Origin: Cryoendolithus antarcticus | Taxonomy: Eukaryota > Ascomycota > Dothideomycetes > Cladosporiales > Cladosporiaceae | Assembly: GCA_002077065.1 (NCBI GenBank) | Contig: NAJO01000053.1 | Coordinates: 124,001-188,000 of the forward strand | Length of the DNA: 64,000 nt | Reading direction: 5' to 3' | Shown: positions 21,150 to 63,407 of the stretch, piece after piece | Numbering within the stretch: position 1 is the stretch's first letter | How the letters are laid out: every line of letters starts with the position of its first letter | Made by a program: the position numbers and the translations under genes | The notes under the pieces: model-generated | Told to the model about the DNA's origin: nothing | Database searches by the model: none | The model's input: only the letters and a program-made list of their open reading frames with translations

Positions 21150-22874
21150 ATGGCAGACCACGTTCCCTCCATCCTGACCTCTCGTCTTGCGAAGTTGAAC
21201 CCATTCGGCAAAGATGGCGCAGACGACGAGAATCTAGGCGAAGTAACGGGTCCTTCGACCATAGCAGGTGGCGGACACGCAGCATTTCGGACTGCCCTCA
21301 CGAAGACGCAGCTTCGCGTCAGTCAAGCCTTGCAGGAATTCCTCATCCATCACCAAGCGCTGGCGGCTGGACTCGGAGATGCTGAGCTCGCGGCTGCTAC
21401 GCAGGCACTCATGGATAAGGCACATATCAACGTACCGGCTTCTGTCATCGATCGATCACATCCTTTGCCAGAGTACTTCGTAAGCTCAAGTCATAACACA
21501 TATCTCCTGGCTCATCAGCTCTACGGTAGCTCTTCCACCACTGCATACGGTCTTGCAATCGGGACTGGCGCCAGATGTGTCGAGATCGATGCCTGGGACA
21601 ACGAAGAGTATCCAGATGAGCCTAAAGTCACGCATGGCTACACACTAGCGTCCAATATCCCCTTCAGAGCAGTCTGCGAGGCGATCCGGGATGCTGTCGA
21701 TCACGAGGGCACTACTACCGAACATGGTCAGCCGTCTCCGGTACTGATCTCGCTCGAGAATCATTGCGGTGCCCGAGGACAATTGCGTCTTGCCCAGATC
21801 ATGAAGGAAGTGTGGCAGCATCGTCTTCTCAGTGAGCGTGTTCGACAGCAGGGACAGCAGGAGCAACAGGGTAGTGGCGAGCATGTCACGCTAGATCAGC
21901 TCGGGGCTAAGATTGCAGTCATAGTCGAGTTCCATGTCGGAGAAGTGCTTTCTGACAGCTCCTCATCAGAGGAAGAGGATGCTGCAAAGGCTGATAGCAA
22001 GGCTTACAAGCAACGAAAGAAGGACGCCGTCGACGCAAGTGTGATCATCCCGGAGCTGGCAGAGCTGGGTGTGTATGCACAGTCGATCAAACCCGTAGAT
22101 AAGTCATGGCTCGAGGGTGAACTCAGTCATCCTCACCATCATCTCATCAACATATCGGAGTCTGGTCTGTCTTCCCTAATGCCAGCATCAAACCCCAAGA
22201 TCGCTAAACACAACTCCGAGCACCTCATGCGAGTCTTCCCGAAAGGTACACGGATCAGCTCGGCCAACCTCAACCCGGCCATCTACTGGGGAGTTGGAGC
22301 GCAAGTCTGTGCACTCAACTGGCAGACTTTCGATGCAAGTATGCAGCTCAACGAGGCTCTGTTCGCAGGCACCGATGGCTTCGTGCTTAAACCCGCAGCA
22401 CTACGGAGAGGCGGTAGTGGCAAACTCAACACTGGCCGGCAAAGACAGCTGCGGCTGCACGTCGTCGGCGCGACTGATGTACCGGTACCTGAAGGCCACA
22501 ACGCAGACGACATACGACCTTACCTGACGTGTTCTCTCATTCACCCGAGTGATGTTGAAGGCAAGCCAGTGAAGCGCAAGACGAGTGCCTGTAAGCAGCA
22601 CAAGCTTGGCTTGGTCCACAAGGGCGCTGCATCTCCTGGTACAGACCCCGTCTGGGACGAGACACTAGAGTGGCAGTATGAGGACAACGAGCTGACGTTC
22701 CTGCGACTGATCATCAAGAGCGATGACAAGTTTGCGAAGAATCCAATGTTTGCTGTGGCGTCCGTCCGGCTGCTTTATGTCGTGAAGGGATGGACGTTCA
22801 TTAGAATGCTGGATCTGAAGGGACGAGAAACGCATTGCACTTTGCTTGTCAAGTTCGACTTCGACGACGCTTGA
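21150..22874 (+). CDS. Phosphoinositide-specific phospholipase C
   Basis: Intronless, 574 aa. The X domain begins at LPEYFVSSSHNTYLL (first catalytic His; about residues 105-250), with VEIDAWD and VTHGYTL (second His) and SLENHCG. An acidic Ser/Glu linker follows (DSSSSEEED, about residue 270), then the Y domain (LSSLMPASNP, VFPKGTRISSANLNP, GTDGFVLKP; about 300-415) and a C-terminal C2 domain (about 425-570: LRLHVVGATDVP, DPVWDETLEW). The enzyme cleaves PI(4,5)P2 to IP3 and diacylglycerol at the plasma membrane. There is no N-terminal PH domain and only a short region before X, so it is shorter than yeast Plc1. Both catalytic histidines are present, so it looks active. Confidence 0.95.
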   Translation: MADHVPSILTSRLAKLNPFGKDGADDENLGEVTGPSTIAGGGHAAFRTALTKTQLRVSQALQEFLIHHQALAAGLGDAELAAATQALMDKAHINVPASVIDRSHPLPEYFVSSSHNTYLLAHQLYGSSSTTAYGLAIGTGARCVEIDAWDNEEYPDEPKVTHGYTLASNIPFRAVCEAIRDAVDHEGTTTEHGQPSPVLISLENHCGARGQLRLAQIMKEVWQHRLLSERVRQQGQQEQQGSGEHVTLDQLGAKIAVIVEFHVGEVLSDSSSSEEEDAAKADSKAYKQRKKDAVDASVIIPELAELGVYAQSIKPVDKSWLEGELSHPHHHLINISESGLSSLMPASNPKIAKHNSEHLMRVFPKGTRISSANLNPAIYWGVGAQVCALNWQTFDASMQLNEALFAGTDGFVLKPAALRRGGSGKLNTGRQRQLRLHVVGATDVPVPEGHNADDIRPYLTCSLIHPSDVEGKPVKRKTSACKQHKLGLVHKGAASPGTDPVWDETLEWQYEDNELTFLRLIIKSDDKFAKNPMFAVASVRLLYVVKGWTFIRMLDLKGRETHCTLLVKFDFDDA

Positions 22875-23211: not shown

Positions 23212-24279
23212 CTAGTAATTGCCATCCGCCCGCGTAGTTGGCGGACCGATGCTGAAGTTGAACCTCGGATAGTGAATGCGCACCTCAGCGTCTCCCTTCT
23301 GCGTCTTAGTCGAAATAGCCATCTCCGACTTCTTCAGGATCACCAGCTTCCCAGCATCTCGCTGCTTGCTTCCAGTGTCAATAGGGAACATCTCCACCTT
23401 TTGCTCGAAAGTGAGACCCGTAGGGTCTTCCTCGACTTGCAGATCGCCTTGCGACACGAAGTCAGCGGATGTGACTTTCTTCAAGGCTTCGGGGCCTTTG
23501 ATTTTGGTTGGCTGTGGGGCGGCTTTCTGGGCTGCTGCGAGAGTGTCGTCGTAGCGTTTGATCCAGGCGCGGGTCTTGGGGTAGTCTCTTGTGCTGAAGA
23601 AGTCTTCGGGCAGGCCGTTGGGGAGGCTGAGCATCCAGCTGAAGATCCATGCGCCTGATGTGGGAAGGTATTGTCAGTAATGGTGCAGCGCACGTCGGCT
23701 ACGAAACTTACTATGTATATCCGCCAAGCCAGGGCTGTCGCCACCGTTGACCCACTTCCTACCATCGCCGAACAGCCTTTCGAGGAAATCAAAATTCCCT
23801 CTCAGACTTGCCAACCCGGCTGGTCGCAGTCGATCCTGCTCTTCCTTCGTCCACGGCCGTCCCCATAGCTCTTCCCGGTCCTTCTGGAAGCCTGGGTCCT
23901 GCACAAGTTCCAAGCTGCTCGGAATGGCGCCTGCTGCCGGACCGAAGACTGCAACATCCGTCCACTTCTCCAGCAGATGCTCCAGTGCTTTGCCAGTGGA
24001 GTCCCTGGCGCCGATTGCCTTGTAGTCCATCCCTGAGATCCATTGCTCGAGCTTTGCGATGATGAGAGAGGTGTCGCAGTAGATGTCCTTGCCCCAGGCT
24101 AGCACGGGAATGCGGCGGTATTTCAGTCCTAGAGACGCGAGGTCTGGACGTGGCAGGGTGATGGGTTGCTCGCAGAGATTGTAGGGAATGCCCCGGAAAG
24201 CGAGATAGGCGACTACTTTGCTCGCCCAGGGTGAGCCGGTCCAGGCATAGAAGATGAGTTGGCCAGGGGAGGAAGGCAT
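23212..24279 (-). CDS. Glutathione S-transferase-like protein
   Basis: Exons 24279-23712 and 23654-23212; the 57-bp intron (GTAAGT...CATCAG, branch ACTGACA) is phase 1, giving 336 aa. The N-terminal thioredoxin-like fold reads LIFYAWTGSPWASKVVAYLAFRG, with the cis-proline in RRIPVLAW and the glutathione-contact segment CDTSLIIAKLE. A helical C-terminal half follows, with a WVNGGDSPGLADIHSAWIF segment restored by the splice. The first 90 residues are GST-like; the rest is longer than a classical GST (about 220 aa) and matches a fungal subgroup with an extended C domain. SPW replaces the usual Ser/Cys active-site pattern, so classical conjugation activity is uncertain. Redox or detoxification roles are inference. 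Confidence 0.85.
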
Positions 24280-25257
24280 GGTTGCGTTACCACCGCAATC
24301 GAGTGCAGCAGTGTGCGTGGAAGCGGAAGAAGATGAGGTGGATAGGAGGGAGGGAACAGGTTCAACCTATACTTAGCTTGCTCATTGTTGCATATCACGC
24401 CATAGCCATTCGCTCAATGCCATCAACCTCAGTACCCCCATTTGCGGGAATAGCATGAGCGTCGTAGACTATAATGGTGGTGCAAAGGTTCGAGAACGCG
24501 CATACCCCTCAATTGCGTGAGGTCGGAGCTACAGTCGGCGCAAAGTCTAGACCCTGGAGCTGCGGAAGCTGTCGTAAAGGGCAATGAGAGACTGTGCTGA
24601 ACCTGTGCGTCGGGTACTCTCGTTAGCAAAGTCTGAGAGGACGAATATGTCGTCGCTCAAGGACACTCCAGCTGGGTAAAGTTGAGAAGTGATTGACAAA
24701 TATCGTACTCCGCAAGCCCGGCCAAATCTCGTGGCACGAACCCAATATATGTCACGTTTGAGACGTCCCTTAGTAGACCACACATCTCTTAATACCGGTA
24801 CCTCACGCATCGTGATCATTTTCTGCCATTGAGTCCAATCTCCATCACGCCACCAGTCGCTCTCTCTAATGTTGCGTGTTCGGACATGAGGCGCTCCGTT
24901 CTGGCACAGGAAAGCACACGCACAGATTGCTACAGTACAACTGCATGGTACGCAATGCTGAACACACATCGCTTGAGCTGCTTGTGTGCTATGGCGAATG
25001 TAGGTCATCTTCTGTTGTACAAGGTGCAATGTCGCAACAATGCTCTAGATATTGGCGTCTCTGGGTCATCTCCTACCACAATCCTGTACATGTTCCGGGT
25101 GGCTGATGGGCATGACGCGCCCGGACCTGCTCCACTGTTTTGGACTGTCAGGCAGCGACATTAGAACGATCGATACTGGCTCGTCACGAGAATCTCCCCT
25201 CATGTGTGTTGGAGAAACAGGTCATGGAGGCAGCAGCTTAGTGGGTGCTTCAAGATC
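24280..25257. other. Intergenic, about 980 bp
   Basis: Upstream of both a leftward and a rightward gene. A 160-codon frame at 24547-25029 (minus) has no recognisable motif and no signal peptide and was not called. No RNA or repeat was seen. Confidence 0.4.
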
Positions 25258-28052
25258 ATGCATTGGCCTGCGTCGACCTCGAGCAAGATCTCATATGCAG
25301 GGAGCCTAGACGACGAGTCTATCTGCAGCGATATGTCTGCTCCACCATATAGTGAGAGCGACACGGACACATTGACGTCGATAGATCATGCTGAGCAGTA
25401 CCATGGCACACTTGAGCTCAACACATCCGGCGCGTACGCCGATGCGGTCCTACAAGGTCTGTTCAATCTGCGAAAGTCCTCGAACGAGTGTGATGCTTAC
25501 AGTCTCCAGATGATGGTCTATTGGACATCACTGTGCGTTCCACGGCACAGGTGCCAGGAAGTGTTCCATTGAACCAGCTATCGGCACCTGAAGCCTCGCC
25601 TAATATCTGTGCCCAGCATACTGCAAGCCTCCGTCGGAAGTCTGTCGCCTCGCCTCCTCGACTGAACATCGTAATGCAAGTGGTCGGCTCTCGTGGCGAT
25701 GTTCAGCCTTTCATCCACCTCGGGCAGGAACTACACAAGCATGGACATCGAGTGCGTCTGGCTACCCATGCCTGCTTTGAGACCCTCGTACGCGACCATG
25801 GACTTGACTTCTTCAGCATTGGCGGCGACCCAAACGACTTGATGTCGTATATGGTCCGCAATCCCGGACTTCTGCCATCGATAGAGGCGGTTAAGCAAGG
25901 CGATATCTCGAGGCAGCGAACGCAGTTGCACACCATGCTGTCTGGTTGCTGGCAAGCTTGTTTCGAGCCTCAAGAACATGAGCGTCCTTTCGTTGCAGAT
26001 GCAGTCATTGCCAACCCTCCAGCCTTCGCGCACGTACATTGTGCAGAGAAGCTCGGCATACCGCTACATGTGGTATTTACGTGAGTGGAGATTCAGCTGG
26101 TGAGCGAATCGTCCGACTGACGCCAGCCAGGATGCCATGGACGCCCACCAAGAGCTTTGCCCACCCTCTTACCCGCACACGTGCGTCCGGAATTGGAGCA
26201 GGAGCCGCAAATCTTACGTCTTACCACATGATGGACTTAGTGTTGGCACAAGGGACTCGAAGTCCCGTGAACAAACTTCGCAGAAGAACGCTCGACCTTG
26301 AGCCCATCGACGTTACATACGCTGCGGGATTACTTGATCGCCTCGAAATCCCGACAACATACCTGTGGTAAGTTGATCGTTATGTCGAGCAGACATTACC
26401 CACATTCTTCAAGTACCCGCTGAGTGACTCATAGGCCGCCGTGTTTGGTGCCCAAACCCCCGGATTGGGGCGATCACATCACAGTCGCCGGTGCTTGCAC
26501 ACCTGCACCTGCGATCCGCTTCGATCCTCCGTCGACACTCGTAAAATTCTTGAAGGCAGGACCGCCAGCGGTATACATTGGGTTTGGCTCGATCGTAGAC
26601 AGCGACTCCACCGCTTTGACAGATCTCATACTAAAGGCCACCGAGCTTGCAGGCACAAGGGCGGTCGTGAGTCGCGGCTGGTCGCAGCTAGGCACCTCTA
26701 CAGAGATGCCGGGACACATCTGTCTAGTAGACGACGTACCCCATGAGTGGCTGTTCCAGAATCATATCGCAGGTGTAGTGCATCACGGCGGGGCGGAAAC
26801 AACCTTCGCGGGCTTGAGAGCTGGCTTACCGACTGTGATCATTCCTTTCTTTGGCGATCAATACTTCTGGGGTGACGTGGTACACAAGGCTGGAGCTGGG
26901 CCTGCTCCGATATCACGCAAGGACCTCAACGCCAGGAATCTTGCCGAGGCGATCATCGCCGCCCTGTCTGGATCATGCAGGGCTGCAGCTACCAGTCTAG
27001 CTGCAAAGCTGAAGACTGAAGACGGTGCCGCCAACTTCGCTACATCATTTCATGCGAGCCTGCCGCTGAGTGCTATGCGTTGTTCCTTAGATCCATCGCG
27101 GGCTGCGGTATGGCAGCTGTCATCCCGGTCAAAGGGAGGACTGAGGCTAAGCACGTTCGCTGCTTCGGTGTTGCTCAAGGAGAGATACATTGGCATCACG
27201 AAGTTGGTAAGGTCAGTACCAGGCATTGCCCTATAACTTCCTTCATTCCAATGGCTCCCGATACTGACTGCTTTAGATATCGCGCGACCGAGTATAACGC
27301 TGTCAACGGGCCACGAGAGCCATTCGCTGGCAGCACGCTCGCGGTGACGAAAGACATATATGGCGTTTTCAAGGGCTTCGGGGAGATTGGTGCTGGTATT
27401 GACCGTAACATCCGTAAGTTGGACCAGATTGGTAGAAAGCCTCCGTTGGTCGACGATTCGTCATCAATGGAGCGGACGCAAGCTGTCAAGCCAACGAAGT
27501 CTGCTCGAACTGGAGGTGTTAGGGTCGTGTCAACAATTCTCAGAATGCCTATGACTTTCTCGCTTGCTCTGGCCCGCGGTGCTCACAACGCGCCCAGATT
27601 GCTGAATGATCCGCTAGTCAGAGAGCCGGACGCTATCACGGGCATCACGAGCGGGCTGATCGCTGGCTGCAAGGGCATAGTACTGGGTACATACGATGGC
27701 GTCACGGGGCTGGTCACACAGCCATACGTCGGCGCTCGCGATGGTGGCGTAGTAGGCGGCGTGCTAGGTATCGGCAAGGGCCTTGTTGGGGCGCCAATGA
27801 AACTTTTCGAGGGTGCGTACTCACTAGTAGCCTAGGGTACGTTGGTGAGCTGACTTGACTGCATTAGCAATGGCGGCACCCGTAGGCTACCCACTCAAGG
27901 GCATAGAGGTGGAGATCTCGCAGGCCATAGCGAGGAGACACCGCGATCCCGTCGACACAGCTAGGATTGCTCAAGGCGAGTGGGAGTATCATGGAGCAAC
28001 TGAGGATGACCGCCAGAAAGTTCTGACAGCGTGGAGGGCTCAGTCAATGTAG
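25258..28052 (+). CDS. Sterol 3-beta-glucosyltransferase-like protein (UGT80 type, GT family 28/1)
   Basis: Six exons: 25258-25456, 25510-26080, 26131-26367, 26435-27211, 27277-27812 and 27868-28052 (834 aa); introns are 50-67 bp and all joins keep frame. The start is uncertain: ATG 25258 gives the longer form, ATG 25333 (MSAPPYSES) is equally plausible. The N-terminal Rossmann half shows GSRGDVQPFIHLGQ, then FTMPWTPTKSF (across splice 2), typical of sterol glucosyltransferases. The nucleotide-sugar half shows YIGFGSIV, VHHGGAETTFAGLRAG and PFFGDQYFWG. After it comes a C-terminal extension of about 300 residues with a Gly-rich amphipathic block (GLIAGCKGIVLGTYDG, GGVVGGVLGIGKG). The GRAM/PH modules of Atg26 are absent. 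It probably transfers glucose from UDP-glucose to a membrane sterol; the acceptor is inferred from family only. Confidence 0.9.
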
Positions 28053-28795
28053 TGAGCTGGATCGACGGATGGGTCACTCTATCCCGACCGACCCGATACC
28101 GTTTACTGCATCGCGCAACGGCGGAGCAAAAGACATCGCTACCGCCAACAAAGCAGAACGCGTCGAAACACAAAGATGCAGTCAAACGCACGTAGAATTC
28201 CGGCGGGAGCCAGAATTTGCCATGGTTGGGCATTTGTGCGCAGCAACCCGGCCGACTTAAAGTCCGAAGACAAGAAGATTGTAATCCGGAAGCTATATAT
28301 CATGACCGTGCATGATCGGTGGCTAAACGGAAGCAGCGGTGAGTGTCCTCGAAGCTCCCGGCTCGCTTATACCTGGGCTAAATGCACATGTGCAACACAA
28401 TGTGCAGCCAACCCAACAGTCGAAAGGGAAGCGTTTACACGGCAATATAGGTAAGGTACCGCACGTTGTTCCTCACGCTAATGCAAGGCTCATGCAGGTA
28501 CTGCATACTTGGCTGTTGGTTTCGTACTGCGACGGCCACTGAGCTTGCGGTCTGTGAACGAAATGATCATGTGTGTATTTTCGTAAGCGAGAGATACTGC
28601 TTCCCCAAATTGCGCTGGGCATGTCGCAGAGTCGTTGGACAGCGTAAATACATGTATAGATGCTGCTCACCACGCTCACGCGTTGGATTCTCAGGTAGCT
28701 GTGTATGGACTGCCCAACGCTTCTGAACCATTCTCCCACTGGAAACATACGACCTGAGCAACCCCTGCGTTCGAATATCGTATCTCGTAGCCAAG
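28053..28795. other. Intergenic, about 740 bp
   Basis: Downstream of the glucosyltransferase and upstream of the first 12-Cys gene; presumably holds the promoter of the latter. No coding motif, RNA or repeat was recognised. Confidence 0.4.
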
Positions 28796-29199
28796 ATGAA
28801 GCTGTCTATTGCGGCGGTGTTAATCTTCGCCAGTGTCGGTTAGTACAACTCGACACTTTGGACAGTCGCAAGGCATCCACCGTTGCATCACATACTGACC
28901 CTTCACAGGTCTGTCGACCGATATCTGTGGTAGATGTAACCTAGGAGCTTCGTGCGCGGGTTATCGCGACCTAAGCTGCTGCGCACAGAAGGAGCACCCA
29001 AACCGCGTTGTTTGTGTGCCCTCGACATGCATGCCCTGCTTCGCAAACACTGACTTCTCGACAGCTGAAATGCTTGGGCAATGGACCGACGTGGCAGATT
29101 ACGATCGGCTGTGGTGATGAGGGTCCTTGCGGGTGCACCTATGACGGCGATATCTGCTGCAAGAAGAGATTTGGACTTGGGTGCAACAGTATTTCGTGA
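28796..29199 (+). CDS. Small secreted 12-cysteine protein, copy A
   Basis: Exons 28796-28838 (43 bp), 28909-29009 (101 bp) and 29065-29199; introns are 70 bp (GTTAGT...CACAG) and 55 bp (GTTTGT...GACAG). The product is 92 aa. A signal peptide (MKLSIAAVLIFASVG) is encoded almost exactly by exon 1. The mature part has 12 cysteines spaced C-x2-C-x5-C-x7-CC-x11-C-x12-C-x5-C-x-C-x6-CC-x7-C. The gene model rests on its paralogue at 31691: the same exon lengths (43 and 101 bp), the same intron phases and a nearly identical cysteine spacing. No known domain was recognised. Such proteins are apoplastic effectors or antimicrobial-like in many plant-associated fungi, but that role is inference. Confidence 0.85.
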
Positions 29200-29529
29200 A
29201 AGGGGAATGGCAGAGAGTGGCCATTGCAAGAGATCGTAAGCAGGCTTGTAATTGGCAGAAGATCCACGCTGCGCAAAGGTTCGCTCAAAGGCAGTGATGA
29301 GCAGCTCGCTGCAACATGTAGTCGTCTTCCGGATGAGCACTGTAGCGACATCAATGGCTTCATCCAGATCAGAGCTCCGGTAGTAGAGTTGGCACTTCAC
29401 ATGCTCTGACCAGGCCAAGCTGGCCTGCGCGTGATGGCAATGATCGCATTACCTCTTCCTTGAAAAGATAATGTCTGCAATGCTACTGCTGGCGCAGATT
29501 GAGATAGCGCAGGATCTGATTATCCCCGT
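29200..29529. other. Intergenic, about 330 bp
   Basis: Between 12-Cys copy A and the 3' remnant of the kinase pseudogene. Nothing was recognised. Confidence 0.35.
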
Positions 29530-30843
29530 CGTCAGCTGCTCGGCGATGGATTCTCGAGTAGCTACTTCGCATCATCCCGCCCTCGGGACACTCTCGGGAT
29601 GTCTCCAATCTTGTTGTCACCTTTGAGTCGATTCTTGAATATTTGAGTCCAGCGCGCGAGTCGCAATTACGCACTTCCACATGCCGTCTACGCTGCGTAG
29701 CCACGAAGCTCTCACGCGCTGCGAGAGGGCAGATGATAGCGGTCCCAAAAGCGCGCACATCTCAGCAAGATGCTGGGCATTCTTGAGCCCGTGAAGAGGA
29801 GGCGGCCCTCGAAGAGATCCCAGATCTGGGAGGATGTCAGTGCAAATAAGACGTGGAACACACTATGCTGAGACTTACCAAGACCCCGACATTCCATATA
29901 TCGATCTCATATGACCAAAGCGTATCCAGAATGACCTCGGGTGCGCGGTACTGGTAAGGCTGCACGTCGTCGGTGTAGGTCGCTTGCCCATAGCGCACTT
30001 CACCGAAGTCACAAAGCACAGGGAGGCCCACTGTCTTGGGCCGATCGAGCTTCCTGGTCTGCTAGATGATCCGGTCGCGATTGATCTTTCGAGGGCTTGG
30101 ATCTTTCAGCTTTGCTTCTTCGAAAGCTTTGAAGGTCTCGTCGTCCTGCGAGCAGATCAGGATGTTGCTGGCTTGTAGATCTGAGCATGAATGTCAGTAG
30201 AGTGGAAGTCTCAGGAGAGCAGGTCAAGCTCACCTGAGTGAACTGTTCTGCCTACAGTATGCAAGCAGTCGAGGGCCAATAAGAGGCATTTGACGAATGG
30301 TCTCCATGTCTCTTCGGGAATGCAGTCATTAGGGAAGAGCTTAACGAGAGACTTAAGACTCATCCCTGATGGTTCATGAACGAGACATAGATGTTCACCA
30401 CCAACGGCTTTGATCGAAAAGCTGTCATACAACTCTCGAGTGAGAACCGCTCCCACATGGGACGTCTCGATAGACTCGGAATACTTGTACCATGCGAGCT
30501 CTCGCTGCGCAGACTTGCTATTGCGTTCGCAGAACTTCAGCGCGACATGCCGATCTGTGCTATGCGTCGACGTCAACACCTGTCCGCTCCGACATTACTG
30601 GGCCGTGCGGGAGGCTTACTGTAGGTCGCGGCCAAGCCAGACTGTTGAGTGCGCCCCGTATCCTAGCTTGCCAAACACCTGATAGCGAGACTCGAAGACT
30701 TCGCCTATGCGGACCGGGAAGTAGACGCCAGGCTCATACCAGCTCCATCGCTCCTCTTCGATGCCCCCAGCGGCGTCTATGCTCCGGAAGCTACTAGCAT
30801 GAAACTGTCTAGGTGCCAAGTGCAGCGGACTAGCAGTGTTGCT
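29530..30843 (-). pseudogene. Decayed SRPK-like protein kinase
   Basis: Four exons can still be traced: about 30843-30620, 30559-30234, 30180-29879 and 29825 onward, with introns of 60, 53 and 53 bp. The order of motifs is that of fungal SRPK-like kinases: YFPVRIGEVF, KLGYGAHSTVWLGRDL (Gly loop), HVALKF (Lys), VHSDLQASNIL (catalytic loop), PVLCDFGE, YQYRAPEVIL and DIWNVGVLIWDLFEG. Lesions: an in-frame TAG at 30062-30064, where relatives have Tyr in the IIYQ motif; a one-base shift near 29784, after which HLAEMCALLGP continues in another frame; a further shift near 29630; and a TAG at 29562-29564 inside the AK-LLENP end. No in-frame ATG precedes the first exon. Splice sites are intact, so the decay looks fairly recent. 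It is flanked by the two 12-Cys genes. Confidence 0.85.
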
Positions 30844-31690
30844 CTGCCATCTCGCAGCTCCCAGACTCCGGCCATGTAGCTGGGCGCGTAGTGGTCTGAT
30901 GATGAGACGTTATACAGCTCTTCGAGAAACTCGCGACCGAGACATGCAGCTGAAGATAGCTCTCCATCGAATCGTAGCGCTAGAGTGTCACACCGCGATG
31001 ATTCGGTTCGGAGGTGTGGCACTGTGGCATAGCACGGGCATGCGAGTGAAGTCCGCAATGCGTAGTCTGTGCGCCTAACTCTTCGTTCGACATATCAGCT
31101 TTCTGCGCATCAGACACCAGCACCACGGCCGGATTTCATTCAGACGGACAGTCGATGTCGGTGCAAAGAGCCAAAGCCCCACCGCGGTCCAGCGTCGAAG
31201 GGTAAATGTGAGCAAAGGTGAGCCATCTCGAAGATCCGCCCTTGTTTGGGCTCCAGGGTAATTGCGCGAATGCAGTCTGCGCACCATAAGGACCAGAGAA
31301 ATTATTCATGTGCAGCTTTCGAGAGCTCTAGGTATAGGCGCGTACACGGCGGCGATATACGTATCGAATGTCGATCTTGACGCTAATACGAGGCACATGC
31401 AGGAACGTTCCACTTCGCCAATGTTTCTCGCACAGCGCAGCCATAGGATCATGTGCTCTTGTAGGCCAGCGACGCTAAACTTCCAATGATGCCGGCAGAA
31501 CGTAATGAGGCAGGAAAGTCTCCGGGAAGCTGCGCATCCGTTTGTGAGGGGTTACAGCTCAGCATGCTGACTCGTTCCGCTGTAGAGATTGCTTGATATA
31601 GACCGCTATGCCATCTTGTAGAGATCTTGGTTTCTAAACGACACGACTTCTGTAAACCTACACGACTCGGCGCCACGGCCATAGCCGACG
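30844..31690. other. Intergenic, about 850 bp
   Basis: Between the kinase pseudogene and 12-Cys copy B. No coding exon, RNA or clear repeat was recognised. Confidence 0.4.
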
Positions 31691-32099
31691 ATGAAGTTAT
31701 CCGTTGCAGCTCTCGTCCTCTTCGCCAATCTTGGTTAGTGACCCTCGACTCGTTTCTAGCGAGCCCTGGGTATCTCTCCATTCCAAGCTGATCCCTCCTA
31801 GGCATGGCCGACATCTGCAGTCGCAAATGCACTCAGGGAAACTCCTGCGCTGGCGACGGCGGGAAAAGCTGCTGCGCGGCAAACGACCACCCAAACCGCG
31901 TGGTAATTTTTCATCCCGATGCCTCCTGCTCTTCATGTAGAGGATCTGACGCGTGTGACAGCTGAAATGCCAGGGCACTCCCCCGACTTGGCAGATAACC
32001 ACTGGCTGCGGTGATCAAGGACCGTGTGCCTGCACCACTTCGAACGACGTCTGTTGCAAGAAGAGATTCGGAATTGGCTGTACGGATCAGACCGGTTGA
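31691..32099 (+). CDS. Small secreted 12-cysteine protein, copy B
   Basis: Exons 31691-31733 (43 bp), 31802-31902 (101 bp) and 31962-32099; introns are 68 bp (GTTAGT...CCTAG) and 59 bp (GTAATT...GACAG, branch ATCTGAC). The product is 93 aa. The signal peptide is MKLSVAALVLFANLG. The cysteine spacing is C-x3-C-x5-C-x7-CC-x11-C-x12-C-x5-C-x-C-x6-CC-x7-C, differing from copy A in one position only. Blocks shared with copy A include DHPNRV/EHPNRV, PTWQIT, GCGD.GPC and CCKKRFG.GC. Between the paralogues the introns are much less alike than the exons, as expected for expressed genes under selection. Function unknown; the six predicted disulfides and export suggest an extracellular, protease-stable protein. 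Confidence 0.86.
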
Positions 32100-32471
32100 T
32101 AGGGGAGCAGATCAAAGCAGTTGATGATCAATGTGTCGAAAGCAATGCAAGGCATCGCAGTTACAAGTGTCACAGAGAGCAGGCTGCTCGGTGATCACTG
32201 GCAGTCGCAGCTGAGGTACTAGGCGTATGAAGGTCTCCCTGTGCTACTGCTATCGCGCCCGCAACAGTGAAAGTCTCGTTCCCTATCGGTGAGAGGGTAG
32301 ACTCACCAGGGACTCAGCTCTGGGTTTGTGGCTCTCACAGACCCGGTGATGTAGCGTGAATGTCGATTGGAGCAGTACCCGCGGTTCAGGCCCTAGAAAA
32401 GTGAAACCAGTACTCGTCTGCCTTCGTGCGGCTGTCCGTCAAGTTCTCGTTCCAGACGTGGTTGATTCATC
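32100..32471. other. Intergenic, about 370 bp
   Basis: Between 12-Cys copy B and the 3' end of the NT-C2 gene. Nothing was recognised. Confidence 0.35.
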
Positions 32472-33509
32472 TCACCCCATAGCCTTACTCCCCACCCTCC
32501 AACTCCTCAGATCCTCCCGAACATCAAATTCATCCAGCTCCCCCACAACCTTCTGACTACTCTTATCCAGCTTCTTCCTCCCAAACCCCCCTCCCGTAAC
32601 CTTGCCCCCCTTGCTCCCCCAACTCTTCCCACCCCCCTCCTTAGTTTTGTGTCCCTTACCCTTCTCATCCTCAGTCCTCGGCGTCACAGTTCCAGTTCCA
32701 GAAGGCGAGTGGCCATTCGAAACGTCTTCCGGTCTGCCGTGCGTGCCCCAGCCGTCGCCGCCGGAGAAGATGTCCTCGATGCATTCATCTGCTTTCAGTT
32801 CGCCGGGTTGGGAGGCCCAGAATGCGGCTAGGGCGCGCCGGTACATGTCCTGCGCTTCGCCGATCTCTTTGCTGCGGACCGAGAGGCTGGGCATCGGTCC
32901 CGCGGCAGGATCCGAGGGGTCAACGTGGTTGTCTGCCGTGCTTCCAGCTTGCTGCGCTTCCGCTGAGATTATCCCTGCGATGCCGCCAAACACCGGGGCA
33001 GAGCGGAGGGGTGGCGCGGTGTATTCGCGCGTCCCTTCGACGTGCTGCATGGCGATGCCGAGGCGGAGGGTGCTGTTGATCTTGCTATCTTGCATGAGGT
33101 AACGGCGTACGACGCCTTTGCCCTCTTCGCCGTCAGCCTCCCCGGCCCCAGAACCAGTAGCGCCCACATACTCCGCTAGGTTCAACCGTACCCTTCCAAG
33201 TGTAATCTCATCCCGCTTTCCCCCGCCTCCATACTCCTGCAGCACTTCAAACTCCGCCCAGCAGGCTGTCAAAACCCCGTCCTTACCCACTGATAATCTC
33301 ACTACCAACTCCTTTATGTAGTCGTAAGTGACGCGGTGGTCTTTTATTGGACTTTTCGTGGTGCGGCCGCGGTGCTCCGCAGAGGAGGAGTGCTCGATGT
33401 GCCATTTTATGTAGGACTGGCCGGAGACTAGGGGGACGTTGTGCAGGTCGAGGATGTTGAGGGTGAGGGCGAATTTGGTGCGGCGGGGGCGGGGGAGGAG
33501 GGAGGACAT
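32472..33509 (-). CDS. NT-C2 domain protein (EEIG1/EHBP1 N-terminal type)
   Basis: Intronless, 345 aa. Residues 10-165 form an N-terminal C2-like (NT-C2) domain: KFALTLNILDLHNVPLVSG, then YIKWHI, KSPIKDHRVTYDY and ITLGRVRLNLAEYV, ending near INSTLRLGIAMQ. This domain is found in eukaryotic proteins that link membranes to the cytoskeleton or endosomes (EHBP1, EEIG1). The rest is low-complexity, with a short Arg/Ala-rich helix (MYRRALAAFW) and a Gly/Lys-rich C terminus (KSWGSKGGK). The precise role in fungi is not known. Short homopolymeric C-rich tracts in the DNA of the 3' part encode the Gly-rich tail. Confidence 0.88.
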   Translation of the reverse strand: MSSLLPRPRRTKFALTLNILDLHNVPLVSGQSYIKWHIEHSSSAEHRGRTTKSPIKDHRVTYDYIKELVVRLSVGKDGVLTACWAEFEVLQEYGGGGKRDEITLGRVRLNLAEYVGATGSGAGEADGEEGKGVVRRYLMQDSKINSTLRLGIAMQHVEGTREYTAPPLRSAPVFGGIAGIISAEAQQAGSTADNHVDPSDPAAGPMPSLSVRSKEIGEAQDMYRRALAAFWASQPGELKADECIEDIFSGGDGWGTHGRPEDVSNGHSPSGTGTVTPRTEDEKGKGHKTKEGGGKSWGSKGGKVTGGGFGRKKLDKSSQKVVGELDEFDVREDLRSWRVGSKAMG

Positions 33510-33815
33510 GCTTGCATTGCGTGCATGAGGTTGTGTGGAGTTTTCACATCATAGCTGTTGGAAGGGGAATAATAGCTTCACTGCAGACGTCACACGTATA
33601 CACTCCAGTGGTCGGAACTCGGGATTGTGCCTTCCGAAGGAGCTGAGAGTGAAGTGAATGAGCGGAGGACATCAAGTACATATCATACAATCCAGACGCT
33701 CTCGTACCTCGCTTCGAGATCACCAGCAAGTTCGAGCAGTCGTCACGACTAAATCTGCCGCAGTGCATATTCCTGGGCTCGTCAAGCTGGTCTTGTAACA
33801 GCAGATACAACACTC

Positions 33816-34265
33816 TCAGGTGACCTTCCCCTTCGCTTCACCGACTCTCCTCCCCTCAAGCCAATAACCCGCCCACATCAACACCACGACGAGCGCGAAT
33901 ATTGGTCCCTGTACAAGCCCATCCCGCGAGTGCTCCGGATCAAACCAATTCGCCCCGGGATACAAAATCGCGGAACACCCCGCAGCACAGTAGAAACTTC
34001 CCACCACTGCACTGACCCACACACTCTCCTTGACTTCCTTCGCTGACAGTTTCATGAACGCTGGTCGCCAAACGTAAGTCAGAGAGAAGGCTGCGAGTAG
34101 CACACCCAGGGACATTGTCTGGCCGTTGTGGAAGCGTGCGTGCGGTGGCCAGCGGGGGTTGTAGATGTGCGTTTCGTTCCAATCGGCGGCGAAGGCGCCG
34201 AGGGTGTAGAAGAGGTTCGCAATAGTCATGATGGTGCGACCGAGGGTGATGTATGGTGCGGGCAT
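33816..34265 (-). CDS. DUF6640-type four-helix membrane protein
   Basis: 149 aa, intronless; ATG 34265 gives MPAPYITLGR. Four hydrophobic segments are visible (IMTIANLFYTLGAF; LGVLLAAFSLTYVW; VWVSAVVGSFYCAAGCSAIL; PIFALVVVLMWAGYW). The loop after helix 1 holds DWNETHIYNPRWPPHARFHNG, the signature of a fungal membrane family with conserved His residues that I associate with DUF6640. Function is unknown. The family name is from memory of the motif; the membrane topology is direct from the sequence. Confidence 0.8.
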   Translation of the reverse strand: MPAPYITLGRTIMTIANLFYTLGAFAADWNETHIYNPRWPPHARFHNGQTMSLGVLLAAFSLTYVWRPAFMKLSAKEVKESVWVSAVVGSFYCAAGCSAILYPGANWFDPEHSRDGLVQGPIFALVVVLMWAGYWLEGRRVGEAKGKVT

Positions 34266-35214
34266 GTTGGGTAGAGTCAAGGGCCGTGGTGCAGGTCTGT
34301 GTCGGCTCTTAGAACACTGGCGACAGCTGCGTGCACGGAAAAGTCCTCCAAGGATGGAAGGGTTTGATGTTGACCTTGGCCACGGAGTTCCGTATCAACA
34401 CAGCGTCGCTGTCGACCCGCCGCCTTCCGTTCGAGCTCACTGTAATGTGAACGTGGAGAGGAGTCTAATCGATGAACTGGACGATCCTACCTCGATAAGG
34501 GAACCTTGTGCGCTGTAGGCGCCTATTGTTGATTGAGTCAATACTTCCGACCAGGGAATCGTGATGTTTCGTACATGGAATATTCCATCATCGAGCATAT
34601 CGTCGCCTGAATGTGAGGTGGAGTCCTCGTCCCGCATGCGCCCCCACCAAACGCGGGCACATGAGACGCGATCTCGAGCTTCATGGCCATCATCAGTCAG
34701 CTCCTCGTGATACCATAACGGCCAACACGGTCAAGCAAACCAACTGCATGCGTGCTCAATTCCAATCACAATCTCAATCGTCGTTCAGCAACCGCCATAA
34801 GGCAGATATCTACGGGTGCCATCAGTTCTCCTTCCGCTTCTCTCACTTCCCCTCATCTCTGTCCTACCAACCTCCCAGCAATCAGCGGGAACAAATTCAC
34901 CCTTCAAGATCACAACAAACGAGTGACCATCTTGGCTACGTTCGAACTCGCTCATCAAAACCTGCCGAGAGCTGTCGAGTATAAGGGCAAGCAATAGCTT
35001 CTCGAGCCAAATACCTGTCTTCAGCCCTGAGGCATCAGCCTGGGTATAAGACACGAGGCTGCCCGGTTTGCTGGCCCTACCCTTCACCGGCCCTTTCAAA
35101 CTCAAAGGTGAATTCCATCGATCACCACTGAGCACTGCGAGACAAGGCTCCGTCAAATTCATCGCTCAAGCGGCTTGTCCTGCCCGCCACGAGCGAGGCC
35201 AACAGCAAAACACG
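34266..35214. other. Intergenic, about 950 bp
   Basis: Divergent region between the DUF6640 and Yippee genes. Frames at 34613-34984 (+) and 34785-35162 (-) overlap each other and show no motif, so neither was called. Nothing else was recognised. Confidence 0.4.
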
Positions 35215-60150: not shown

Positions 60151-63100
60151 TCAAGCCTTCTCCTTAGCTCCCCCACTACTCATCGAGCTCTCCGTCAAAT
60201 ACCTCTGAAACACCCTCTCCTCGATCCCCAAACTCGGATCACTCGATGTAGACTTCCTGCTCTCCTGTCGTCGGAAGTAGACGCGTTTGCAGAACTTCCA
60301 GCTCTCGGCGCCGAGGAAGAAGAGGAGCGCGGCGATGAAGACGATGCCCCATTCCCTGTGGTTGACGTTAGTAAGAGATGAAAGGTATGGGTGAAGGGGA
60401 TGAGGGGAACGTACCACGAGATGCCGGTGTGTTTGAACACCACATCGTCCAGTCCAGGAATGTAGAGGAGAGGGAAGATGAGTACGAAGCCAGCCATTAC
60501 GGCGACGAAGAGAAACTTATTTGTCCAGACATCTCTCATCCAGCCGTAGTATCTGTTCCCGTTTGGTCGCATGTGGAAGAACGATCGTCGCAAATTAATC
60601 ACCTCCCAAGCCAAGAACAAGCTCAGCCAAGTCATCGTCGCGAAGCAAGTCGCCCGTGCGCGGAAGATCAAATCACACCCATCGTCAATAGACTCATTAC
60701 AGCGGTAGCCGATGATGCCGTCTTCGAAGCCATACAGGACGAGGACGAAAGATGCCAAACAGAGCGCTGCGATCCAGATCCCGTAGAAGAGCATATCGCA
60801 GCAGACCTCCCAGGTAAAGATACCCTTCTTGCTGTCCTGCGGTGGGCGCGAAAGGATATCCGGCGCTGCGCGCTCGAAGCCAAGACCCATGTCGGGGATT
60901 CCGGAGGTGACCATGATGATCCACATGATCTCCACGGGACTTAGTGGGAAGACGGAGATGTTCTCGCCGTCTTTGAAGACTAGTCCAATCAAAAGGATCA
61001 GAGCCTGCGCCACGTTCTGCGAGAGCAAGTGCAGTACGAATTTCTGGATGTTGTCGAACGTCCTTCGCCCTTCTTCTACAGCTGCGAGGATCGAGGCGAA
61101 GTTGTCGTCCGTGAGAATGATGTCGCTGGCGTCTTTGGCGACATCCGAGCCGGCTTGACCCATGGCTATGCCGACGTCTGCGCGCGAGAGGGAAGGGCTA
61201 TCGTTCACGCCGTCACCTGTCATGGCTGCGTATTTACCGCGACGGTGCAGGGCGTCAATCATGCGGACTTTGGTGTTTGGGGCGCAGCGGGCGATGACGA
61301 GAGGTAGGACGGGGAGCTTGTCGATCTCGTCGTCGGAGAGCTGGTCGAATTGAGAGGCGGTCATGACCATAGCGTCCGCAACGTCTTTGCTGATGAGGTC
61401 CATCTTAGATGGAAGAATGCCAACTTGTGCGGCGATTGCGCGAGCTGTGCCGGGGTGATCGCCGGTGAGCATGTGCACGGCGATGCCGGCTTCGTGACAT
61501 TTGCGGACTGAGGATGCGGATTCGGGGCGCGGAGGGTCGTAGAGGCCGATGAGGCCGCGGAAGACGAGGTTGTTCTCGATGACTGTGCGGTCGATCTCGG
61601 CGCCCTCTTCGAATTCTTCCTCGTAGCGACGGTTGGCTAGCGCGAGCACGCGGAGACCCAACTTGGCGAGTCCTTCCATGTTCTCGAGGACTTGCTCGCG
61701 GAACTCTTCGGTGATCTCGATGGGCTCTTCATTTGACTTGGCGACGTAGGAAGTGCACGAGGCGATGATGCGCTCGACAGCACCCTTGGTGAATGCGAAA
61801 GTCTCCTTAGTCTTGATATCTTGGTAGAGCACTGACATCTTCTTGACGTCAGAGTCGAAAGGGAATTCCGACAGCATCTTCCATGCTGGATTATCACCAG
61901 CAACAGATGCACGGCGATTCCAGTTGAAGCGAGTGGCGAAGACTTGGATCGCAATCTCAGTCGGATCACCGCGAGCGTTCCAATTGCCTTCGTCAGTCTG
62001 ATGCACATTTGCTAGGTTGGCAAGAGAGGCAACACGTAGATATTCTTTGATCGCATCGCCCTCTGATAGCAGCTCTTCGTATGATGTCTCCTTCTCGTCA
62101 GTATTCTCACCTTGGAGTCGAGGCTCGTGCGTGCCGAATGAGATGTTACCCATGGTCGGGTTAAAGGGTTCCGAAGTCTCGCCGATGGTGTAGGTGCCAG
62201 TCGCGGGAATCCAGGCCTTCTTTGCGACCATCTTGCCTTGTGTTAGAGTACCGGTCTTGTCGCTGCAGATGTCCGTCACTCCTCCAAGTGCCTCGAGGGA
62301 TCGGAGACTGCGGACGATGACATTCCGCTCTACCATGCGTTTTGTGCCAGCTGCCATCGTGATCGTCAAAACTACAACAAGCGAGGCAGGAATCATCGAG
62401 AGACCCGTGGCGACTGCGTAGATGATGACTTCTTGTCGATTGCGAAAGTTGTTGGCACCTAGCACGATGATTGCGCAGATGATGGCGATGAAGAAGAGGA
62501 GCAGTGCGAGTCGTGCAAGCTTCTTCTGCAGAGGTGTGCCGACGTTGACACCGAGGAAGTGACCGACTGCATCTGTGACTGTGAGAACAGTGGCTTCAAC
62601 GTAGCGGTGAGGCTTGACAGTGCCGTCTTTCGACTGCTTCGGTGATCGGAACTTGCTGTCTTTCTTGCGAAGTGCGGCTGCAATACTTCCAATCTCGGTG
62701 TGCATGCCAGTGGCGAAAACAATGCCGGTCGCTCTACCTTTGGTCACGGTCGAAGAGCTGTAGGCGACGTTGAGTCGGTCGCCAGGTCCAGTGAGATCTT
62801 CGAAAACGCTGTTGGCATCTTTGCGGACGGGCAGTGACTCGCCCGTAAGAAGTGCCTCGTCCGTCTCGAAGTTGACGGCCTCGATGATGCGGACATCAGC
62901 AGGTACCACATCGCCGGTCTTCATCTCCACGAGATCGCCAGGGACAATTTCCTGGGTAGAGACAGTAACAGACTTGCCATCTCGCACAGCCGATGCAGTA
63001 GGCGAACTCAGCGATCGGAGCGAGTCCATCGTCTTCTCTGCTGAGTATTCCTGCATGAACCCAATGACGATGTTGAGTATGATGACAGCGGCGACTACGC

Positions 63101-63407
63101 CTCCTTCGATGTACGAGGCGATCGCGAAAGATACCGCCATGGCAATAATGAGAATCAAAGTCATGGCGTTGGCGACTTGTCGTAATAGAATTTTGCCAGG
63201 GTTAACGCCACCGCCTTCTCCAAGCTCATTCCGGCCATGCTCTTCGAGTCGCGCGGCAGCATCTGCTGAGGTGAGACCATCGTCGCCGTCTGCCTTGAGC
63301 TCATCCAGAACATCCGTCCACTTGAGAGCGTGTGCTGGTCGGCTGATAGGCTTGTTGGATTGGCCAGAGATATGCTCCGGCTGTGCTTGGGTGTCGCCGC
63401 TTCCCAT
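60151..63407 (-). CDS. ENA-type sodium/cation-exporting P-type ATPase (P2D)
   Basis: Exons 63407-60415 and 60355-60151; the 59-bp intron (GTACGT...CACAG, branch ACTAACG) splits a Trp codon in SWEWGIVF; 1065 aa. The P-type ATPase order is complete: cation-ATPase N domain (about 25-100), TGES (near 187), the phosphorylation site DKTGTLTQ (near 380), KGAVERI (nucleotide domain), TGDHPGTARAI and GDGVND (near 735), with about ten membrane helices. The last helices, restored by the splice, read IVFIAALLFFLGAESWKF. The closest family is fungal ENA (Na+/K+ export, P2D), judged from the overall motif set rather than a search. ENA pumps protect against high salt and alkaline pH at the plasma membrane. 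Confidence 0.93.

Follow-up and report, generated by a model that had tools for sequence, protein, structure and literature searches.

What kind of gene occurs twice within a few kilobases of the genome of Cryoendolithus antarcticus, each time in three short exons, and what might its small, cysteine-rich product do? The question concerns two genes, here called A and B, in a stretch of 64,000 nucleotides that was analysed as a whole and is referred to as the window (positions 124001-188000 of contig NAJO01000053.1, in an assembly of 46.97 Mb and 149 contigs). Gene A occupies window positions 28796-29199 (404 bp from ATG to stop, 92 amino acids, aa) and gene B positions 31691-32099 (409 bp, 93 aa), with 2,491 bp between them. 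An earlier reading made from the letters of the DNA (the sequence-only reading) had proposed two three-exon genes on the forward strand, and modelling reproduced their positions, their exon lengths and their intron phases, which are phase 1 for intron 1 and phase 0 for intron 2 in both. We show that both genes are real and under purifying selection, and that they make up, as far as searched, an orphan family, apparently a new family of a well-known kind. Tentatively, and at somewhat less than an even chance, we take this to be a family of secreted, disulfide-rich proteins that act on competing microbes as antimicrobials or antagonists.

The evidence that the genes are real comes from comparison with a second pair. 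A genome search with A located another copy of each gene, in reversed orientation, on contig C68, where A2 runs from 651797 to 651395 and B2 from 648116 to 647708. Genome searches with B2 and with B returned the same four genes and otherwise one weak match (E 0.19) on contig C59, which has three internal stops and was dropped as chance; when relics of a third copy near the B locus were sought by relaxed tblastn, across the window and roughly 30 kb of C68, only the four known genes emerged, the other matches (E of at least 0.04) being taken as chance. Exon 1 measures 43 bp and exon 2 101 bp in every copy, and the spliced frame is open in all four. Each of the eight introns carries a CTRAY branch-point motif (CTGAC or CTGAT) that starts 14-16 nt before the next exon; base shuffling placed CTRAY in the last 24 nt of 0.69 of the eight introns on average and reached the full eight in none of 20,000 shuffles. 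The sequence-only reading had also contrasted conserved exons with differing introns, and segment identities between A and B agree, the exons being moderately conserved (29/43, 66/104 and 95/138 for exons 1 to 3) and the introns hardly so (40/72 and 34/62).

Not every splice site is equally convincing. If intron 2 is retained, the frame stops within exon 3 in A and B (50 nt and 1 nt after the exon start, respectively) and inside the intron itself in B2; in A2 the intron is 54 nt long and in frame, and its retention leaves the gene open to the normal stop. The retained intron was considered as a true frame and rejected for the family because it is not conserved across the four copies, A2 being the only one to stay open. 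A2 alone might be read unspliced at this point, and its intron 2 is the least surely spliced of the introns, since its donor is weak (GTCCAC) and the frame remains open on retention. Judged by eye, an alternative donor 3 nt farther upstream would preserve the phase too, in which case Val48 may be absent.

The pattern of substitution points the same way. A and A2 share 85 of 92 residues, with 8 changes over 213 nonsynonymous sites against 21.0 over 62.7 synonymous sites (nonsynonymous divergence dN 0.038, synonymous divergence dS 0.444, dN/dS 0.087), and their differences fall by codon position as 5, 4 and 20, so that 20 of 29 are at third positions. B and B2 share 62 of 93 residues (dN 0.272, dS saturated), A and B 56 of 91. 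Nonsynonymous and synonymous changes were compared by Fisher tests in four of the six possible pairings, with p of 1.8e-9 for A/A2, 1.6e-14 for B/B2, 3.2e-11 for A/B and 1.1e-14 for A2/B2. Selection on the protein, which the sequence-only reading had argued for, is thus borne out by a strong synonymous bias across copies and the low dN/dS of A/A2. That these are chance open frames or pseudogenes, a view to which the weak donor of A2 intron 2, its open frame on retention and the AAG acceptor of B2 intron 1 lend some colour, is hardly credible; it is already contradicted by the synonymous bias, the intact spliced frames in four of four copies and the branch points in eight of eight introns, and it is because of these that we regard the genes as real.

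The second pair lies in what appears to be a duplicated genome. When 29.7 kb of C68 was compared with the window by blastn, long matches at 73-87% identity were obtained across about 18-46 kb of the window. The Rpb1 family, for which three genes are expected in an ordinary fungus, is present as six genes on six contigs (C106, C72, C109, C59, C82 and C117) that score as three pairs; there were seven matches, of which two are neighbouring pieces of one gene. Because of the homeologous region on C68 and the six Rpb1-type genes, the genome as a whole appears duplicated or hybrid. Hortaea werneckii also has a duplicated genome (PMC7325687). The PI-PLC gene in the window (21150-22871) encodes a protein that agrees at 559 of 574 residues (97%) with one from Oleoguttula sp. 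CCFEE 5521, a fungus placed in the Teratosphaeriaceae, Mycosphaerellales; the version encoded on C68 is 92.7% identical to it, and Hortaea proteins, in the best 120 of 1004 matches, are 62% identical. An origin in H. werneckii was rejected on these identities; two Hortaea primer sequences also gave no match, which weighs little since the rDNA may be missing from the assembly, where a single 5.8S hit was obtained. Judged by this one protein, the genome is probably close to Oleoguttula sp. CCFEE 5521. The genus is listed among rock-inhabiting genera (PMC8856086) and is described at low frequency in Antarctic cryptoendolithic rock communities (PMC8001563).

The sequence-only reading had given a 12-cysteine spacing pattern, and A and B agree with it exactly, the gaps between successive cysteines being 2,5,7,0,11,12,5,1,6,0,7 in A and 3,5,7,0,11,12,5,1,6,0,7 in B. 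Each of the 12 cysteines of A has a cysteine aligned to it throughout the four copies; A, B and A2 have 12, and B2 has 13 in the mature part and one more in the signal region. Their order, C-C-C-CC-C-C-C-C-CC-C, amounts to C-C-C-CC-C twice. The motifs HPNRV, PTWQIT and CCKKRFG.GC, which had been singled out as shared, are indeed common to A and B, and across the four copies HPNRVLKC and PTWQIT are each altered at one residue in a single copy. In every copy the most hydrophobic stretch lies within residues 3-14 (best 10-residue mean 2.6-3.1), and the proteins are probably secreted, as predicted from this hydrophobic N-terminus. With lengths of 92 and 93 aa, this signal-like stretch and a cysteine content of 15.8-17.1% of residues 18 to end in all four copies, they would fall among the fungal small secreted cysteine-rich proteins as delimited by published criteria (under 300 aa, a signal peptide and more than 5% cysteine; PMC8596622), from which they stand apart by a 12-cysteine spacing of their own, by the upstream element common to the four genes and by the failure of the searches to turn up a relative in sequence.

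Two familiar architectures invite comparison. A knottin-like order, C-x5-C-x7-CC-x11-C-x12-C, emerges if cysteines 2-7 are taken by themselves, the inhibitor cystine knot being defined by knotted I-IV, II-V and III-VI disulfides; the family differs in having six further cysteines, and no confident fold is available. Inhibition of proteases or other hydrolases outside the cell, as by other small disulfide-rich inhibitors, would suit the size, the cysteine density and the conserved HPNRVLKC and PTWQIT, but no inhibitor family was matched in Pfam or PDB, and we attach little weight to the idea. Hydrophobins are likewise small and secreted with paired CC motifs, and class II hydrophobins also have the CC-x11-C spacing. 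A role of this sort, in which a surface-active or wall-associated protein would coat the hyphae and aid attachment, is attractive in that a rock dweller needs attachment and three families of small secreted cysteine-rich proteins alter wettability and favour attachment (PMC8596622). However, the present family has four additional cysteines in an order that differs from C-CC-C-C-CC-C, its mature part is polar (mean hydropathy -0.21 to -0.58 over residues 18 to end), and neither a hydrophobin nor a cerato-platanin match appeared in Pfam up to E 10, so that such a role seems improbable, if a little less so than inhibition.

Searches for relatives were otherwise negative. In Pfam the gene A protein matched no family up to E 10 (HMMER filters drop most matches above 0.1), and the gene B protein gave one sub-threshold match, to PF10917 (Fungus-induced), which we take to be a family of nematode antimicrobial-type peptides; it covers residues 5-36 at E 0.045 and 14.5 bits, below the curated cut-off of 24 bits, occurs in one of the four copies only and lies for about half of its length in the signal-peptide region. 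None of the four proteins matched a family in NCBIfam. Among PDB sequences, up to E 10, AMT1 (activator of metallothionein 1) was the only match, at chance level (E 0.14 with B, 0.28 with a profile). An intracellular, metal-binding protein of metallothionein-like type could claim this match in its favour, but the match spans only 30-32 residues and aligns few cysteines, and the hydrophobic N-terminus also speaks against it; we consider it very improbable.

A collection of 5.77 billion proteins, in which Oleoguttula, Cladosporium, Zymoseptoria, Hortaea and other fungi are represented, gave no candidate when queried with B by itself and 232 when queried with a profile of the four copies, none at E of 10 or less; as this search needs shared exact 5-residue words and similar length, distant relatives can escape it and the negative speaks against close relatives only. 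Phage records yielded a single match, taken as chance, and among the literature matches listed no title or abstract start was found that describes the family, subscription papers being mostly outside the coverage. The sequence-only reading had recognised no named family, and no significant relative has since emerged from Pfam, NCBIfam, PDB or the large collection. Its description of the genes as unannotated is plausible, in that the collection contains the Oleoguttula sp. CCFEE 5521 protein that is 97% identical to a neighbour of the two genes but yielded no relative of A or B. Most fungal small cysteine-rich secreted proteins are unclassified, and there are dozens to hundreds of them per genome (PMC8596622).

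Beyond the coding sequence, and beyond what the sequence-only reading had reported, the four genes share a new upstream element. Alignment of the 600 bp upstream shows a block about 285-340 bp before the ATG that is common to all four, with 35 of 46 bases alike between A (-340 to -295) and B (-330 to -285). The best ungapped segments score 21.8 for A/B, 18.4 for A/B2 and 18.4 for A2/B2, against maxima of 14.4, 13.0 and 11.8 in 30 base-pair shuffles each; in the B/B2 comparison the top segment is a longer one, situated further upstream (94.8, at -585 to -412 of B). Between A and A2 the block belongs to an 87-bp exact run, the third longest of 56 exact runs of at least 40 in 28 kb of homeologous sequence, unlike the stretch just before gene A (28650-28799), which is 65% identical to its homeologous counterpart on C68. 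A 26-base pattern written from the four copies, and so bound to match them by construction, occurs with up to three mismatches at exactly these four places in the 47 Mb; the result lies in the absence of a fifth, and the reversed control gave none. A 226-bp DNA search found A and A2 only, which indicates that B and B2 carry a less similar version of the element.

Two other identities for the block were tried and rejected. For a coding exon the differences lack the expected pattern, falling by phase as 4, 4 and 3 between A and B (11 of 46) and as 5, 3 and 5 between A and A2 (13 of 170); for an RNA gene there is no Rfam match at E of 1 or less over 28000-32400, and no tRNA was found in the window. 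The block possibly lies in an intron of the 5' untranslated region. We infer that it is a family-specific promoter element, which may serve as a switch.

The two genes have fared very differently between the subgenomes, which is also new. Some 1 kb surrounding gene B can hardly be aligned with C68 647559-648429, although both flanks align, and the seven 150-base bins from 31350 to 32399 are 46-69% identical. Over 28200-34349 the other 150-base bins are mostly about 70-91% identical (lowest 65%), apart from three low bins at the two cut ends of the alignment (47, 52 and 49%), the first two of which lie where C68 has more than 1 kb of sequence without a window counterpart; upstream of A, C68 652414-653801 has more than 1 kb between matching blocks and window 28079-28174 about 95 bp. 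Synonymous difference (pS) is 48.8/63.7 = 0.77 for B/B2 and 21.0/62.7 = 0.33 for A/A2, and ranges from 0.16 to 0.55 in ten neighbouring gene pieces. The B locus is therefore far more divergent between subgenomes than neighbouring genes. B and B2 look nearly as old as the duplication that gave A and B, because they are hardly closer to each other than A is to B, and this despite their occupying the same position in the two subgenomes. Loss of different members of a larger array, introgression, or alleles retained over a long time could each account for it; since silent and noncoding sites diverge too, the divergence does not argue for positive selection on the protein. At its most ambitious, the observation might mark B as an ancient, idiomorph-like locus of recognition or antagonism, with two lineages of about the age of the A/B duplication maintained by balancing selection or interspecies exchange while A stayed conserved, the whole forming, together with the family-specific upstream element, a co-regulated, diversifying system of secreted weapons or recognition proteins in a rock-dwelling fungus, directed at something other than plants; we think this a long shot.

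Several neighbouring features deserve mention in their own right, and the coordinates of the genes and their associated elements are collected in Table 1. The GST and glycosyltransferase genes (window 23674-27233) show a pS between subgenomes of 0.16-0.24 against 0.40-0.55 in the other gene pieces, as if more recently exchanged or converted. Between A and B, on the reverse strand, lie kinase gene pieces (29712-30819) that are SRPK-like by eye, with DFG and APE motifs, and the gene is possibly degenerate; an extra stretch of about 790 bp on C68 (650027-650816) holds a further kinase-like fragment with stops. Elsewhere on the reverse strand of the window, an open reading frame at 5908-6978 matches the fungal rhodopsin domain PF20684 (E 3.1e-74), and a P-type cation ATPase lies at 60195-63407.

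Table 1. Modelled parts of genes A and B, conserved upstream elements and the divergent segment, in window coordinates
Feature	Position	Strand	Remarks
Gene A exon 1	28796..28838	+	Modelled; homeolog A2 on C68; encodes most of putative signal peptide
Gene A intron 1, GTTAGT...CTGAC...CAG	28839..28908	+	Retention puts a stop immediately behind exon 1
Gene A exon 2 (Cys 1-5)	28909..29009	+	Modelled, four-copy comparison
Gene A intron 2, GTTTGT...CTGAC...CAG	29010..29064	+	Splice motifs, retention check
Gene A exon 3 (Cys 6-12, including stop)	29065..29199	+	Modelled, four-copy comparison
Gene B exon 1	31691..31733	+	Modelled, four-copy comparison
Gene B intron 1, GTTAGT...CTGAT...TAG	31734..31801	+	Splice motifs
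Gene B exon 2 (Cys 1-5)	31802..31902	+	Modelled, four-copy comparison
Gene B intron 2, GTAATT...CTGAC...CAG	31903..31961	+	Splice motifs, retention check
Gene B exon 3 (Cys 6-12, including stop)	31962..32099	+	Modelled, four-copy comparison
Upstream conserved element, gene A	28435..28521	+	87 bp identical in A2; 26-base core 28476-28501 (-320 to -295)
Upstream conserved element, gene B	31361..31406	+	26-base core 31381-31406 (-310 to -285); 35/46 bases as in A
Hyperdivergent segment around gene B	31350..32400		46-69% identity to C68 in seven 150-base bins; blastn gap

The nearest described parallel, when compared by description, would be AvrStb6 of Zymoseptoria tritici, a fungus of the order Mycosphaerellales. 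It comes from the same order as Oleoguttula and is likewise a small secreted protein with 12 conserved cysteines, encoded by three exons with two short introns and missed at first annotation. AvrStb6 is reported to have 80-82 aa, 12 invariant cysteines and three exons with two introns, mostly in 365 bp from ATG to stop (PMC8358995), although a review table gives 86 aa (PMC7488470), and ab initio models of it have been published (PMC10094246). It differs from the present family, with its 92-93 aa, in length, and in coming from a wheat pathogen, in which it is an avirulence gene recognised by a known receptor, wheat Stb6. The parallel in size, cysteines and exon structure, the absence of AvrStb6, too, from a first annotation (PMC7488470), the unusual divergence of the B locus between subgenomes and the 80-236 effectors per genome that EffectorP predicts in 14 lichen-associated black fungi (PMC11664114) could all be taken to suggest an interaction effector of the AvrStb6 type, that is, a protein of the apoplast or thallus space that manipulates an alga, lichen, moss or plant under recognition pressure. 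We judge this unlikely, though by no means negligible: the likeness is one of description, A and A2 evolve slowly (dN/dS 0.087), and what the excerpts at hand of the Oleoguttula literature describe is rock communities, not plant disease.

In proposing instead that the family acts on microbes, we envisage the following. Three exons would be spliced into each mRNA, and the hydrophobic N-terminal stretch would direct the product into the secretory pathway, where cleavage near residue 17 would leave a mature protein of about 75 residues whose 12 cysteines (13 in B2) probably form six disulfides. The mature protein would probably work extracellularly, binding to competing microbes or damaging them being its likeliest mode of action, and the four members would probably be switched on together through their shared upstream element. 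Action on microbes is ranked first because the nearest named relative is a rock-dwelling black fungus. The sequence-only reading had raised a new effector or antimicrobial-type family as a possibility, and either function would at present be conjecture. There are precedents: ancient antimicrobial proteins common to saprotrophic fungi have been described, and it has been argued that fungi employ such secreted proteins outside pathogenesis (PMC13127573), and works cited there report, by their titles, that AvrStb6 regulates the wheat pathobiome and that killer-like proteins of Z. tritici inhibit fungal growth.

Several considerations weigh against an antagonist. The predicted mature proteins carry a net charge of 0 to +2, close to neutral, and many membrane-active antimicrobials are strongly cationic. 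The substitution counts indicate purifying, not positive, selection. An AlphaFold model of the exon 3 peptide alone, built with two sequences, was uninformative (mean pLDDT 48.9), and an effector, a surface protein or an inhibitor could have this anatomy as well.

If the family does consist of antagonists, a relative of rock dwellers would possess a 12-cysteine secreted scaffold in the very order to which AvrStb6 belongs, which would make it possible to ask whether effectors of this shape in plant pathogens arose from weapons against microbes. The four copies constitute a natural experiment, in which a conserved gene and a hyperdivergent one occur in both subgenomes along with a common upstream element amenable to testing as a switch. 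Even as one more orphan secreted protein, the family would be an example of the way in which short three-exon genes can go unannotated.

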